From assembly GCA_018402155.1 (NCBI GenBank), contig JAGYJG010000001.1, forward strand, positions 880,198 through 944,197: a stretch of DNA of 64,000 nucleotides. Reading direction: 5' to 3'. Positions 47,635-63,995 of this stretch are shown here, piece after piece. Under the pieces are notes generated by a model. That model saw only the letters and a program-made list of their open reading frames with translations, was not told where the DNA came from and did not search any database. This DNA is from Bacteroidia bacterium (lineage in GTDB: Bacteria; Bacteroidota; Bacteroidia; NS11-12g; UBA9320). Each line of letters begins with the position of its first letter. Position 1 is the stretch's first letter. The translations under genes and the position numbers were made by a program.

Positions 47635-47691
47635 GGTCATTAATCACGATAATTTATAGTTACTAACTTCATTTTCTTTACTCTATCCTAC

Positions 47692-47948
47692 TTTTTACAA
47701 TTGTCAACAAATACATGTCTGCCGACAAGCAATGTGGGAAGCAGACTTTGAAGAGTCACCTCCAGCGGCGGATAAACTTTTGGATTGGTTGTAAAAATGC
47801 TATTTTTGAATATCCGATAATGGAATAAACGTACCCACTTCACCAATAATGCTTTTTACCTATATCAATGAACCAATTCAAAGTTGCGTAGATAGTAAAA
47901 ATAGACGCATGTTTTGTGGGGAGTTGCGTCTATACTAATGTTGGCATG
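47692..47948 (+). repeat. Repeat copy A, truncated small frame plus hairpin, ending at a G|TT box
   Basis: The first copy of a four-copy repeat. From 47692 it carries the partial 52-codon frame (NKYMSADKQCGKQTLK and RRINFWIGCKNAIFE). It then runs through a spacer to a perfect 9-bp hairpin, ATAGACGCA (47901-47909) with TGCGTCTAT (47925-47933), and ACTAAT followed by GTTGGCATG (47940-47948). Copy C at 52668 has the same right part with eight substitutions over about 240 bases. The 5' end of the small frame is missing here. Confidence 0.85.
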
Positions 47949-47962
47949 CATTTGAAAAATAA

Positions 47963-48433: not shown

Positions 48434-48449
48434 AAACAGATAATATATT

Positions 48450-48698
48450 ATGAACAGACTATTGAAAATGATTTTTACAATTGTCAACAAATACATGTCT
48501 GCCGACAAGCAATGTGGGAAGCAGACTTTGAAGATTTTCCTCCAGCGGCGGATAAACTTTTGGATTGGTTGTAAAAATGCTATTTTTGAGACTTATAATG
48601 AGGAGTAGATGCCAAAGGTGCGGTAATATATAGTAGCGTACATAATGGAAATAAACTCAATAAGAGGAATGAGGTTCGTATATAAAGATGTTAGAACT
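48450..48698 (+). repeat. Repeat copy B with a 52-codon frame, ending at a G|TT box
   Basis: A full-length frame from ATG 48450 to TAG 48608 encodes 52 residues starting MNRLLKMIFTIVNKYMSADK. It matches copy D at 63711 from the ATG onward, and copies A and C internally. After the frame, the segment GTACATAATGGAAATAAAC is shared with D in modified form. It ends in GTTAGAACT at 48690-48698. A weaker hairpin is formed by AACTCA and TGAGGTT. Differences among copies are mostly amino-acid changing, so this may not be a selected protein. Confidence 0.75.
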
Positions 48699-48784
48699 AA
48701 TGCTGAAAAAAGATAAACGACACTCAACGATAATGAATAAAAATAGATTTACCTTACTAGCAGATTAGTCTAAAGCAAACAGGA

Positions 48785-51112
48785 ATGAAACATAATACAA
48801 TTGCTAACACCATTCCGCGCCGAGATTTTCTAATTCAACTAGGTATGGTAAGTATTTCGATGATGCTTACCCCATCCAAAGTTTTCAGTTTTCCATTATC
48901 TTCAACAAATCCTCTCATTGACTTTAAGCCCTCGCTAAATGATGAGGATATTTTTACCTATATCAGCCGGGTTTCAGGAGGATTTGACTTAAAGCTTTAT
49001 AAAAAGTTGGTTGGTGCTGCCAATGAATTCAAAGAAGGCGATGAAATTGCAGGAATTGCAGCTCCTAATGAAACTGCCAGAAATATGGCGCGTAACCTTA
49101 TCGCAAACACACTGCTATCAGACGTCATCGAGCAGCCTCTTTTCAGAGATGAACAATATGACCTTATTCACAACACTACCGCATTTGATAAAGATGTTTG
49201 TAGCATGACCTTCGGTCAGTTAAAAGAGTTCCTACTTGAATCAGATGAAGCTGAGATTAAGAGCATCATGCCCTCTTTATCTAGTGATGTTATTGCTTTC
49301 GTTGTAAAGCTACTGACCAATAACGAGTTAGTAAGCATCAGCAGCAAAGTCTTTAATTCACTCCCCAATAGCAACATTGGTGCAAAAGGTTATGTTAGTG
49401 CTCGAGTTCAGCCGAACTCACCTACCGATAATATCGAAGATATTGTTTGGCAGGTATTTGACGCTTGGTCTTATGGAGTAGGAGATCTTGTGCTTGGAAC
49501 CAATCCGGTTTCGAGTGATCCGCTTATTGTGGCACAAATCGAAGCGGCACTAAATGACTTGCTAGTTACTTTCCAATTGGAAAATACGATGCCCCATTGC
49601 GTCCTTTCCCACATTGATATTCAATCTCAAGTTGAAAATATACAGCCCGGAACTACGGGGATCTGGTTTCAGAGTCTAGCAGGCACAGTTAAGGCTAATC
49701 AAACCTTCGATGTAACAATAGAAAAAATGCAGGCACATTCAGATGCAAGACAAGCCAATCACTATAGCCTTTATGCAGAAACCGGTCAGGGTGCCGACGG
49801 TACCAATGGCCACGGCGAAGGTTTCGATATGGTCGTACATGAATCCCGGAAATACGGATTTCTGCGAGCATTAAAGCAACGACTCGGCAAACCCGAAATT
49901 AACAATAATGTTCCTTGGGTGTTTCTCAATGATGTCGCCGGATTTATAGGCCCGGAAGTATTCCGCACCAAAGAACAACTCGTTCGCTGTTGCCTAGAAG
50001 ACCTTGTAATGGGTAAGCTTCATGGGCTTACTATTGGGCTAGACATCTGCACGACGCTGCACATGGACGTTACCCTAGATGATCTTGATTGGTGCATTGA
50101 TCAGATTATGCCAGCAAATCCTGCCTATTTCATGGCTCTGCCAACGAAAAATGACCCTATGCTAAGCTACCTTACCACTTCTTTTGCCGATCACGTTCGG
50201 GTGCGTGAGCAATTTGGCTACAAGGTAAATGATGCGATGTGGGAGTTTTTTAAGCAAATTAATATAATTGGTTTTGACAATAAACCAACCGCCCTTTTTG
50301 GTCAGCCCAACCAAGTTTACTTGCGCTATTGTAGAGCAAAAGGCGATATGCGCAGTGAAGAAACAATATTGATTGAGGGTAAATCCGCCATTGACCGTGT
50401 TCGCAAACGAGGCGTTCCTATTGCCGAAGGATTTGGGGAAAAATTCTGGCAAATGGAACCCTCGCTGGATCGCGAAATTCGGGAGCTTTATAAAGACGCC
50501 AAATATTGTTTGTGGACTGAATGGGAGCCTGCTTGTCTGCAGTCCATAAAAAATGCTATTGTAATATCATCACTGTCGAACAACAGAATTGACTATGTAT
50601 ATCACCCTGCTAGCGGTGAGCGAATTTCACCCGACAGTTTATTAGTAATCCAAAGCCTGCGTAAAAGGCTCAAAAAAAATACACCTGATGTGCAGATTAT
50701 AATTTCAGACGGCTTGAATACCAGGTCACTTATGGATGAAGATCACCTTGAAACATTTCTTCCTTCCGTCTACAAAAATTTGGCTTCTCTCAATTTAACT
50801 ATTTCTGAAGCGCCCATTGTGATTCGGAACGGACGTGTGCGTGCAGGCTACGAGGTTGGTGAGCTACTCTTCGGGAAAGAGGGACTGAGTAAACATTGTG
50901 TTGTACATATCATTGGCGAGCGGCCCGGAACTATGCACCGTAATTTCTCAGTCTATATTACTGCAGCATCAGCATCAATTTGGAATTACCGTGGCAAAGT
51001 CGATCACGATATTACACGGGTGATTTCAGGTATCAGTGATACGGCATACTTACCAAAAGAAGCAGCATTAGAAGTGGCTTCTATTGTTGCTAAACTGATG
51101 GGTGTAAAATAG
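48785..51112 (+). CDS. Ethanolamine ammonia-lyase, fused EutB-EutC, with Tat signal
   Basis: The 775-residue product joins both subunits of the coenzyme-B12 ethanolamine ammonia-lyase, which splits ethanolamine to acetaldehyde and ammonia. Residues ~53-500 are EutB-like: KLVGAANEFKEGD, RVQPNSPTDN, FQSLAGTVKAN, AETGQG, GFIGPEVF and GKLHGLTIGLD. Positions matching the known active site are Arg207, Gln209, Asn240, Glu332 and Asp420. Residues ~580-775 are EutC-like: ISDGLNTRSLMDEDHL, GRVRAGYEVGELLFG, VVHIIGERPGT and DHDITRVISGISDTA. The EutC N-terminal part is shortened. The N-terminus has a twin-arginine motif (PRRDFL, residues 11-16) and a hydrophobic stretch, predicting export of the folded enzyme. 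No other eut gene is near. Identity is firm; location and activity are inferred. Confidence 0.9.
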   Translation: MKHNTIANTIPRRDFLIQLGMVSISMMLTPSKVFSFPLSSTNPLIDFKPSLNDEDIFTYISRVSGGFDLKLYKKLVGAANEFKEGDEIAGIAAPNETARNMARNLIANTLLSDVIEQPLFRDEQYDLIHNTTAFDKDVCSMTFGQLKEFLLESDEAEIKSIMPSLSSDVIAFVVKLLTNNELVSISSKVFNSLPNSNIGAKGYVSARVQPNSPTDNIEDIVWQVFDAWSYGVGDLVLGTNPVSSDPLIVAQIEAALNDLLVTFQLENTMPHCVLSHIDIQSQVENIQPGTTGIWFQSLAGTVKANQTFDVTIEKMQAHSDARQANHYSLYAETGQGADGTNGHGEGFDMVVHESRKYGFLRALKQRLGKPEINNNVPWVFLNDVAGFIGPEVFRTKEQLVRCCLEDLVMGKLHGLTIGLDICTTLHMDVTLDDLDWCIDQIMPANPAYFMALPTKNDPMLSYLTTSFADHVRVREQFGYKVNDAMWEFFKQINIIGFDNKPTALFGQPNQVYLRYCRAKGDMRSEETILIEGKSAIDRVRKRGVPIAEGFGEKFWQMEPSLDREIRELYKDAKYCLWTEWEPACLQSIKNAIVISSLSNNRIDYVYHPASGERISPDSLLVIQSLRKRLKKNTPDVQIIISDGLNTRSLMDEDHLETFLPSVYKNLASLNLTISEAPIVIRNGRVRAGYEVGELLFGKEGLSKHCVVHIIGERPGTMHRNFSVYITAASASIWNYRGKVDHDITRVISGISDTAYLPKEAALEVASIVAKLMGVK

Positions 51113-51356
51113 AATTCAAAAAATATGTTCAATTCATAAAATCAAATACAGGGAGAAAGTAAAAAGCTATAGAAATCAAAATATAGACGGAAGCACCAGT
51201 GACAGCACTCGTTAAACATTGGCTGTTCAGTGGTTAAATCAAGCGTTGTGCATCTATTTAAGTTTTGTGCTGGGTTGATAGTGAAGTGCTCCGCAATCCG
51301 CCAACTTCTCCAAGCCCGAAACCATTATTAGCAATTAAATTTAAACAAAAACAAAA
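51113..51356 (+). repeat. Degenerate attC-like spacer after the EutBC gene
   Basis: This non-coding spacer contains GTTAAAC at 51211-51217, which fits the GTTRRRY core exactly, and CCGCCAAC at 51298-51305, which has the form of a right-hand box. Neither has a perfect partner on the other side of an adjacent gene group. Read as worn or composite cassette junctions. Confidence 0.35.
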
Positions 51357-51908
51357 ATGACAAAAATCAAATCGACTGCGAGCAGAGTATGCTCCCCATC
51401 CCCCAACTACCAAAACAAAACCTTACTACGTGCCATGAATTATGCCGTATGGCTCTTGCTAGTGGTGTCGGCATGCCAAAAAGAGATTGTACCTGACCCA
51501 AATCCCTTGTTGGTTTACGAAGTAGCACTGGACGCCTTTGTAGCGGATTTGCAGGCACAACCACTCGATTCTGCTGGCCTTTCCGCTCGGGTACGGGATT
51601 ATTTGGCGCCCAAATCGGAGAGTTTCTTTGGTGCAGCCGTGGCTCTATTGGACAGCACCGGAAAGGCGTACTACAGCCCCTATTGGTACCGCCTGAACGA
51701 TAACTTGGCTTTGAAAAACTTGGCAGACTCGGCCTATCAAATAGACGAGCAAGAGTGGCTGCGCCAGCCTATCGACAGTGGTTATGCCATTTGGACCGAG
51801 CCTTATTTTGATGCCGGAGGTGGCGAGGTGTGGATGAGAACACGCGCCGTTCCAGTAGTCTTAAATGGCAATATAGTTGCTGTAGCCACAACCGACATGA
51901 AATTGTAA
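51357..51908 (+). CDS. Cache-domain lipoprotein
   Basis: A 183-residue protein. A lipobox-type segment LLLVVSAC (residues 33-40) indicates a lipoprotein; the upstream 26 residues are polar, and a second ATG at 51435 would give a shorter signal peptide. The remainder resembles an extracellular Cache/PDC sensor domain: FFGAAVALLDSTGKAYYSPY, then a W-containing segment (WLRQPIDSGYAIWTEPYFD) and MRTRAVPVVLNGNIVAVATTD. Such domains bind small ligands in receptors, but no kinase, cyclase or chemotaxis module is attached. The DNA is visibly richer in G and C than its neighbours, suggesting separate origin. It lies 27 bases before the NTF2-like gene. Confidence 0.7.
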   Translation: MTKIKSTASRVCSPSPNYQNKTLLRAMNYAVWLLLVVSACQKEIVPDPNPLLVYEVALDAFVADLQAQPLDSAGLSARVRDYLAPKSESFFGAAVALLDSTGKAYYSPYWYRLNDNLALKNLADSAYQIDEQEWLRQPIDSGYAIWTEPYFDAGGGEVWMRTRAVPVVLNGNIVAVATTDMKL

Positions 51909-51935
51909 TAATATTAACACAACTAAAACCATAAA

Positions 51936-52475
51936 ATGATGAGAAAAGCAAATTACATTTTGACCATCTCCTTTGCCTTTGCCATAGCTCTGGCGGGCTG
52001 CAACTCTTCGAGCAACGAGCAAGTACGGAACACCAACTCCGATTCATTGCTCCTTGCGGCTGAACAAGGCATTCGAGAAGCCAACGACCAACTATATGCA
52101 GGACTGAACAAGATGTTTGAAGGCGACATGCAAGTGCTGAATGCGCTGTGGTCGCACAGGGAATCGACTACGTACATGGGGCCTTTTGGCGGTTCTATCA
52201 CGGGATGGACTGCAATAAGGGAAGAGTTTAACAAGGTGGCAGCCATGAAATTGGGCGGGAAAATTACATGCAGCAACGTCCATGTGTTTCCGGGAACAAA
52301 CATAGGCTACACAACCTGCGTGGAAGTGGGCGAAAACATAAGCCCGGATGGCACGCCGGTAGAAGTAAGCCACCGCGCTACCAATATTTTTCAACTGCAA
52401 GAGGGCCAATGGCGATTGATTCACCACCACACCGACATTTCCACCCAACTGGAAACGGCATTCGAAAAGGATTAG
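51936..52475 (+). CDS. NTF2/SnoaL-like lipoprotein (DUF4440 type)
   Basis: A 179-residue protein with a lipobox (FAIALAGCNSS, lipidated Cys near residue 21). The mature part has the cone-shaped NTF2 fold pattern: an N-terminal helix (LLAAEQGIREANDQLYAGLNKM), DMQVLNALWSHRESTTYMGPFGG, and a C-terminal beta sheet ending QLQEGQWRLIHHHTDIS. Members range from enzymes to binding proteins, and no catalytic residues can be fixed. It shares the higher G+C of the preceding gene and probably the same transcript. Confidence 0.8.
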   Translation: MMRKANYILTISFAFAIALAGCNSSSNEQVRNTNSDSLLLAAEQGIREANDQLYAGLNKMFEGDMQVLNALWSHRESTTYMGPFGGSITGWTAIREEFNKVAAMKLGGKITCSNVHVFPGTNIGYTTCVEVGENISPDGTPVEVSHRATNIFQLQEGQWRLIHHHTDISTQLETAFEKD

Positions 52476-52534: not shown

Positions 52535-52714
52535 ATGAGTAAGATTTTAACCCCAGAACAAACCGCCATTACTGAACAGTTTCAAGCACATATTGACGCT
52601 GAAATTCGCGGTGACCTTGACACGACTCTGTCGACAATGACATCAAGTGCACATTTTAATAATATACCAACAAATACATGTCTGCCGACAAGCAATGTGA
52701 GAAGAAAACTTTGA
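52535..52714 (+). pseudogene. Truncated SnoaL-like gene cut off by repeat C
   Basis: A short frame starting MSKILTPEQTAITEQFQ that continues HIDAEIRGDLDTTLSTM and HFNNIP, which is the normal N-terminus of an NTF2-like SnoaL protein. After about 45 residues it runs directly into repeat C (from 52668), where it continues only as frame-shifted repeat sequence to a stop at 52712-52714. The rest of the gene is absent, so the repeat junction removed it. Confidence 0.75.
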
Positions 52715-52911
52715 ATAGTCACCTCCAGCGGCGGATAAACGTTTGGATTGGTTGTAAAAATGCTATTTTTGAATATCCGATAATGGAATAAACGTACCCA
52801 CTTCACCAATAATGCTTTTTACCTATATCAATGAACCAATTCAAAGTTGCGTAGATAGTAAAAATAGACGCGTGTTTTGTGGTGAGTTGCGTCTATACTA
52901 ATGTTAGCGGT
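52668..52911 (+). repeat. Repeat copy C, joined to a broken gene
   Basis: Near-identical to copy A but starting later (CAACAAATAC) and joined directly to the truncated SnoaL-like gene. It has the same internal hairpin (ATAGACGCG 52864-52872 with TGCGTCTAT 52888-52896, one G-T pair) and ends in GTTAGCGGT at 52903-52911. That box is complementary to the one at 55544. Confidence 0.85.
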
Positions 52912-53187
52912 TATTCAAAAATGATATCAGAAGCTAGGCAAAAGCATCGGTTTCTGAGACCAATTTTGGGTCACAAAACGTAAAAAAGGGTTCTAATTGA
53001 ACCAAAAGAATAAAAAATGACGTTTTGATGATAAATTTGAAGAATGCTACTCAGACGGTTTGAACTTGGTGGAGTATAAAACTCCTATACTTGGTCTAAA
53101 AAGAGTTCAGTTTTAGTGTTATGGGTAGGATATTTTATTCTATCCTTTGTTTAACCGGAGCGAAATCTCCACAAATTTTTAAAAATT

Positions 53188-55633: not shown

Positions 55634-55781
55634 TTTAAACAACATAGCGGTTCAAGGCAGGCTGACCACCTAAAGTGATAATCAAAAAAAAGTGGAGACA
55701 AGTAAACCACCGAAAAAAACAGGTAGAAATCTGAAAATCCATAAGAGTAGGAACAAAATTTAATTATAAAAAAATAACAAA

Positions 55782-63702: not shown

Positions 63703-63710
63703 AATATAGT

Positions 63711-63995
63711 ATGAACAAACTATTGAAAATAATTTTTACAATTGTCAACAAATACATGTCTGCCGACAAGCAATGTGAGAAGAAAACTTTGAAGAGTCTC
63801 CTCCAGCTGCGGATAAACGTTTGGATTGGTTGTAAGGTTTAATTACTTTTGGGGGAAATAGAAATGATACGTATAACCAGTTCACAATGTTTCATCGTAT
63901 ACCTTTTTAATGAGACACGTTTTCTATAGTGTACATAGTGGAAATATGCACAATAGGGGGTATGTATTGTGCATATACTATTGTTGGTGATAACC
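63711..63995 (+). repeat. Repeat copy D with small frame and 12-bp hairpin
   Basis: ATG 63711 opens the same small frame as copy B (MNKLLKIIFTIVNKYMSADK), truncated by a TAA after 43 residues. It ends in a perfect 12-bp hairpin, ATATGCACAATA (63944-63955) with TATTGTGCATAT (63965-63976), then ACTATT and GTTGGTGATAACC (63983-63995). The hairpin has the same placement as in A and C but different sequence, so pairing rather than sequence is kept. The next cassette-like segment begins at the window edge. Confidence 0.8.

Follow-up and report, generated by a model that had tools for sequence, protein, structure and literature searches.

The closest described relatives of the protein reported here are the ethanolamine ammonia-lyases EutBC of E. 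coli and Listeria (PDB 3abo and 2qez), in which the same two domains, with the same fold and the same substrate-binding residues, are distributed over two chains. Residues 1-20 of E. coli EutC constitute an encapsulation peptide that directs the enzyme into microcompartments (PMC11334477). The protein that we describe, about 30% identical to E. coli EutB, differs from EutBC in several respects: it is one chain; it carries a signal peptide; it lacks the EutC N-terminus with the encapsulation peptide; and neither an eut operon nor genes for EutA or a microcompartment lie close to its gene.

A second described system resembles it in arrangement. The reductive dehalogenases RdhA/PceA are cobamide enzymes that bear an RRXFXK signal and are moved pre-folded into the periplasm by the Tat system (PMC6095959). 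We claim no sequence relation to these proteins, which do not use adenosylcobalamin (AdoCbl), perform no radical elimination, contain iron-sulfur clusters and have the RdhB anchor. As far as we are aware, AdoCbl enzymes are considered to be confined to the cytoplasm. We describe a family of fused EutB-EutC proteins that probably depart from this pattern.

Results

The gene lies in a 64,000-nucleotide stretch of Bacteroidia DNA (the window; Table 1). Its single ORF encodes 775 residues, with coordinates and length exactly as first reported, and the original prediction that this one ORF holds both EutB and EutC agrees with the ORF check and with Pfam: EutB matches residues 70-501 with 441.6 bits, above the curated cut-off of 25, and EutC matches residues 578-772 with 99.4 bits (cut-off 25.8; profile positions 45-225 of 235). 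The protein passes the NCBIfam EutB model (565.2 vs. a threshold of 554) and misses the NCBIfam EutC equivalog threshold (71.5 vs. 230). The gene is present in a single copy in the source genome (2.49 Mb, 99.6% complete).

An AlphaFold model computed from a 63-sequence alignment (pLDDT 88.2, pTM 0.87; disorder limited to residues 1-8 and 25-41) indicates that the protein has the fold of both subunits: VIA-align superimposes residues 55-512 on E. coli EutB (3abo_A; Z 44.5, rmsd 1.9, 431 residues) and residues 506-775 on residues 57-287 of EutC (7xrm_B; Z 23.4, rmsd 2.6, 230 residues), and EutC chains in the PDB match the model at Z about 23. As these matches together cover residues 55-512 and 506-775, EutB and EutC appear to be joined almost end to end. 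The EutC part had been described as shortened; its N-terminus is indeed truncated, but by less than was proposed, the loss in the structural comparison being limited to roughly 56 residues at the start of EutC. The stretch that bears the encapsulation peptide in E. coli EutC is absent.

Table 1. Features of the fused gene and its surroundings (positions in the window)
Feature	Position	Strand	Basis
DNA unit 80-90% identical to other Bacteroidota contigs, flanks unrelated	48690..51200	+	blastn against L018, L019, L020, L022, L023
Fused EutB-EutC ethanolamine ammonia-lyase, predicted exported, 775 aa	48785..51112	+	ORF; Pfam EutB and EutC; PDB matches 2qez, 3abo
Predicted Tat signal peptide, residues 1-35	48785..48889	+	RRDFL followed by 17 uncharged residues; motif conserved in family
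Twin-arginine motif R12-R13-D14-F15-L16	48818..48832	+	R12 and F15 kept in at least 90% of 63 aligned homologues
EutB catalytic TIM-barrel domain, residues 55-512	48947..50320	+	VIA-align to 3abo_A; R207, Q209, N240, E332, D420
EutC domain, residues 506-775, fused directly to EutB	50303..51109	+	VIA-align to 7xrm_B; Pfam EutC 578-772
Tentative attC-like palindromic element behind the gene	51200..51332	+	Alignment with elements in L018, L020, L022; motif scan

Scanning 84,980 genomes for motifs of the mature domain returned 115 relatives, and 80 loci were kept. The 80 sequences analysed comprise 77 usable full-length sequences from the scan, the window protein and two members encoded on Sinorhizobium plasmids; 78 of them were recovered via the mature-domain motifs HGEGFDM and DDLDWCI, independently of the signal. 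In the tree, the exported fused proteins make up a single clade with full support, on a long branch and apart from the conventional EutBs of the same phylum and of E. coli, and occur in at least eight phyla (Bacteroidota, Balneolota, Ignavibacteriota, Myxococcota, Planctomycetota, Acidobacteriota, Pseudomonadota and Thermodesulfobacteriota). Their occurrence is patchy: the fused exported gene was found in 2 of 395 genomes sampled over the phylum, in 6 of 107 other genomes of the order and in none of 18 other species of the genus. The Sinorhizobium pSymA proteins (e.g. WQO78063.1) are full-length members, 48-51% identical, with TRRDLL or SRRELL signals. A plasmid of Methylocystis sp. MJC1 (L113:4956-7151) also encodes EutB and EutC in one chain, of 731 aa; this protein has no signal peptide, is about 28% identical, is placed by the tree with the conventional side at the end of a very long branch, and is probably an independent fusion.

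The five active-site residues named in the original prediction, Arg207, Gln209, Asn240, Glu332 and Asp420, align with the substrate-binding residues Arg160, Gln162, Asn193, Glu287 and Asp362 of E. coli EutB, and all five are identical in 80/80 members. Further pocket residues (E. coli Q246, S247, V326, F329, L402 and Y404) are likewise kept throughout the 80; the only difference among the pocket residues compared is Thr340 in place of E. coli Ser295. With the pocket otherwise unchanged, ethanolamine is a plausible substrate in the periplasm. An exported AdoCbl eliminase that acts on a related amino alcohol instead might be suggested by the long branch that sets the family far from conventional EutB, and 2-amino-1-propanol is also bound by the E. 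coli enzyme (title of PDB 5ysr); given the near-identity of the pocket with that of E. coli EutB, we consider such a change of substrate improbable.

The sequence PRRDFL followed by a hydrophobic stretch, noted at the outset ahead of EutB, was confirmed: the arginines are residues 12 and 13 and 17 residues without charge follow, so that the window protein has the RR-type motif, the N-terminal position and the moderately hydrophobic, uncharged h-region of a Tat substrate, and the source genome encodes TatC (198.9 bits). Cleavage is possible after V33-F34-S35, since close relatives show A/V/C-x-G/S/A there. The generic TAT-signal HMMs Pfam PF10518 and TIGR01409, which are too short to be informative on a Tat signal, do not match the window protein and match just 6 and 9 of 74 members, respectively; the case for Tat therefore rests on conservation of the motif across the family.

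The search for fused EutBC proteins with Tat signals, proposed with the original prediction, was productive: a motif R-[R/K/N/E]-x-[F/L/V/C/W] precedes a hydrophobic, mostly uncharged stretch in 79 of the 80 members (43 RR, 33 RK, 2 RN and 1 RE). Homologues do not begin downstream of it; R12 is at least 90% conserved, although the N-terminal 80 residues show a mean column identity of only about 29%. In Myxococcota, Planctomycetota, Acidobacteriota and Rhizobiales the members are of RR type, and RR-type members are included among the early branches of the clade; the RK form occurs in Bacteroidota, Balneolota and relatives. RK differs from the textbook RR motif. An unrelated gene next to one family locus (L058:2600-3562, minus strand) begins MMSRKKFIKGSAIIGASLAAPNFLFG, an RK variant of a Tat-like signal, which suggests that RK signals are more widespread in Bacteroidota. 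A strict RR rule (RRx[hydrophobic][ILVMF] plus 13 uncharged residues) selects 41/80 members vs. 5/692 neighbouring ORFs, and a relaxed rule 69/80 vs. 22/692. Single RR motifs thus do arise by chance; the idea that the motif arose in this way in a single cytoplasmic protein is, however, refuted by its family-wide conservation, and we give this reading almost no credence.

At least 30 of the 80 members have a lipobox behind the motif, and three more (L040, L053 and L069) are lipobox-like outside the search pattern. The single member without a Tat-like motif, from Desulfobacterales (L081), has a Sec-like signal instead. These observations also bear on the view that the N-terminus serves as an uncleaved membrane anchor, or is a dead remnant, with a stand-alone fused enzyme on the cytoplasmic side. 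Such a location would suit the cytoplasmic nature of AdoCbl and aldehyde metabolism, the frequency of RK variants and the silence of the TAT HMMs, and we know of no periplasmic AdoCbl enzyme. We nevertheless hold it to be unlikely: the motif persists across at least eight phyla while the surrounding sequence drifts; a lipobox makes sense only for an exported protein; the Desulfobacterales member has exchanged the motif for a Sec-like signal; and an N-terminal extension of this kind is absent from the phylum's conventional EutBs. Tat export of a folded B12 enzyme, as originally proposed, is well supported, because the homologues include the motif and the genome encodes TatC; the enzyme is probably exported from the cytoplasm.

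As had been noted, no eut partner lies near the window gene. The source genome contains no EutA, its sole match being FtsA, which adjoins FtsQ and was rejected as a candidate. The missing EutC N-terminus, the lack of eut genes nearby and the lack of EutA in the genome do not fit an Eut microcompartment. In 31 of 32 genomes tested, no EutB other than the fused exported form is present and a true EutA is lacking; the weak EutA matches (18-37 bits) fall on ORFs of about 440 aa that resemble FtsA, a resemblance checked for the match in the window genome. The exception is Polyangium, which has both kinds of EutB and an EutA (206 bits) adjoining the second, conventional one. Absence of EutA is not unique to this family, as EutA may also be missing from some short eut operons of the conventional kind.

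CbiC, used as a single marker for de novo cobamide synthesis, is missing from all 32 genomes, the source genome included, and these bacteria therefore appear to scavenge cobamides. A PduO-type adenosyltransferase is encoded in 31 of the 32; the source genome has one, together with methylmalonyl-CoA mutase. Given this combination, the probable route to AdoCbl is synthesis from scavenged cobamide in the cytoplasm, where it could be loaded ahead of Tat export; this narrows the question of its supply, which the original prediction had left unexplained.

Clustering of about 900 neighbouring ORFs revealed no conserved neighbour and no conserved operon; a cluster of ABC ATPases was rejected as an operon partner, being a chance occurrence. 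In three scattered loci a gene for a Peripla_BP_6 binding protein lies upstream of the enzyme gene, at 15 bp (L090:6835-7995), 23 bp (L079:3-1154) and about 210 bp (L031:340-1557). Such genes, the lack of a reactivase and of pathway partners, and the apparent scavenging of cobamides would also fit an exported protein that is no longer an ethanolamine ammonia-lyase and instead binds or senses cobamides in the periplasm. A mere cobamide binder would have no need of the invariant substrate contacts of EutB, and no cobalamin riboswitch was found in the window or at the 20 loci searched; there is accordingly little to recommend this reading.

Homology at the DNA level is sharply bounded, comprising the gene and about 90 bp on either side. 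As the closest relatives (90-92% identical) have only this unit in common with the window and differ in their flanks, it is a probable unit of horizontal transfer. Behind the gene, an attC-like palindrome (TAACAGC..TTGGCG..CGCCAAC..GTTA) is present in the window and in the related contigs L018 and L022, and it is possible that the unit is a gene cassette of a chromosomal integron; the window copy folds no better than shuffled sequences (z 0.33), and an attC scan gave few strong sites, shuffled and control DNA yielding similar numbers of weak matches.

Other features of the window were recorded. Four intergenic repeat copies of up to 297 nt, 72-97% identical, occur at 47662-47958, 48442-48589, 52625-52921 and 63703-63835, the region of the EutB-EutC gene lying between two of them. 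Two small genes at 51357-52475, for a protein with an MCP-like PDC sensor domain and a SnoaL-like protein, have 50% G+C vs. 37.5% for the window and were probably acquired recently. DUF805/DUF805b RNA motifs were found in the window (55687-55757) and in two of 12 related contigs searched (L023:7486-7554 and L025:2377-2409).

Discussion

Our analysis suggests, as the likely explanation, a conserved family of exported one-chain ethanolamine ammonia-lyases that cross the membrane through Tat as folded holoenzymes and cleave ethanolamine in the periplasm. The architecture, the unaltered active site, the conservation of the export signal, the lack of EutA and the presence of TatC and an adenosyltransferase are direct observations; export itself, holoenzyme loading, activity and physiological role are what we infer. 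EutB and EutC are fused directly, the N-terminus of EutC that has a microcompartment-targeting role in E. coli is lost, and a twin-arginine signal is gained, in many relatives as a Tat lipoprotein signal. The chain would fold in the cytoplasm, probably with AdoCbl supplied by the PduO-type adenosyltransferase acting on scavenged cobamide, and the folded holoenzyme would then pass through Tat. In the periplasm it would convert ethanolamine, for example from phospholipid breakdown, to ammonia and acetaldehyde; the ammonia could serve as a nitrogen source after uptake, and acetaldehyde would stay outside the cytoplasm, the cell envelope serving in place of a transporter and a microcompartment. 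Alternatively, AdoCbl may arrive from outside, via the outer membrane, and be bound after export; the Desulfobacterales member would have to acquire its cofactor after export, given its Sec-like signal.

Since a reactivase is absent, each enzyme molecule presumably remains active until damage to its cofactor, and suicide inactivation without reactivation is a cost that counts against our preferred explanation, as do the RK variants, the generic TAT HMMs that miss most relatives and the Sec-like signal of the Desulfobacterales member. The fuller proposal, to which we attach an even chance, is that of an AdoCbl radical enzyme family working outside the cytoplasm: loaded inside, exported in the folded state by Tat, often lipid-anchored, operating without a reactivase in bacteria that do not make cobamides, and with the periplasm replacing the Eut microcompartment.

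The individual parts are of known kinds, and the exported, reactivase-free arrangement appears to be undescribed; a literature search found no paper joining ethanolamine ammonia-lyase to Tat export, which is weak evidence, as subscription papers were mostly outside its coverage. The EutB annotation conceals a distinct exported family: WQO78063.1, for instance, is annotated just as "ethanolamine ammonia-lyase subunit EutB", with fusion and export unmentioned. Members occur in culturable species of Algoriphagus, Echinicola, Myxococcus and Sinorhizobium. A widespread exported family of this kind raises the questions of whether Tat can carry AdoCbl holoenzymes across membranes, how a radical enzyme subject to suicide inactivation would pay its way without a reactivase, and whether bacteria of lakes, the sea and soils may scavenge nitrogen by periplasmic deamination.
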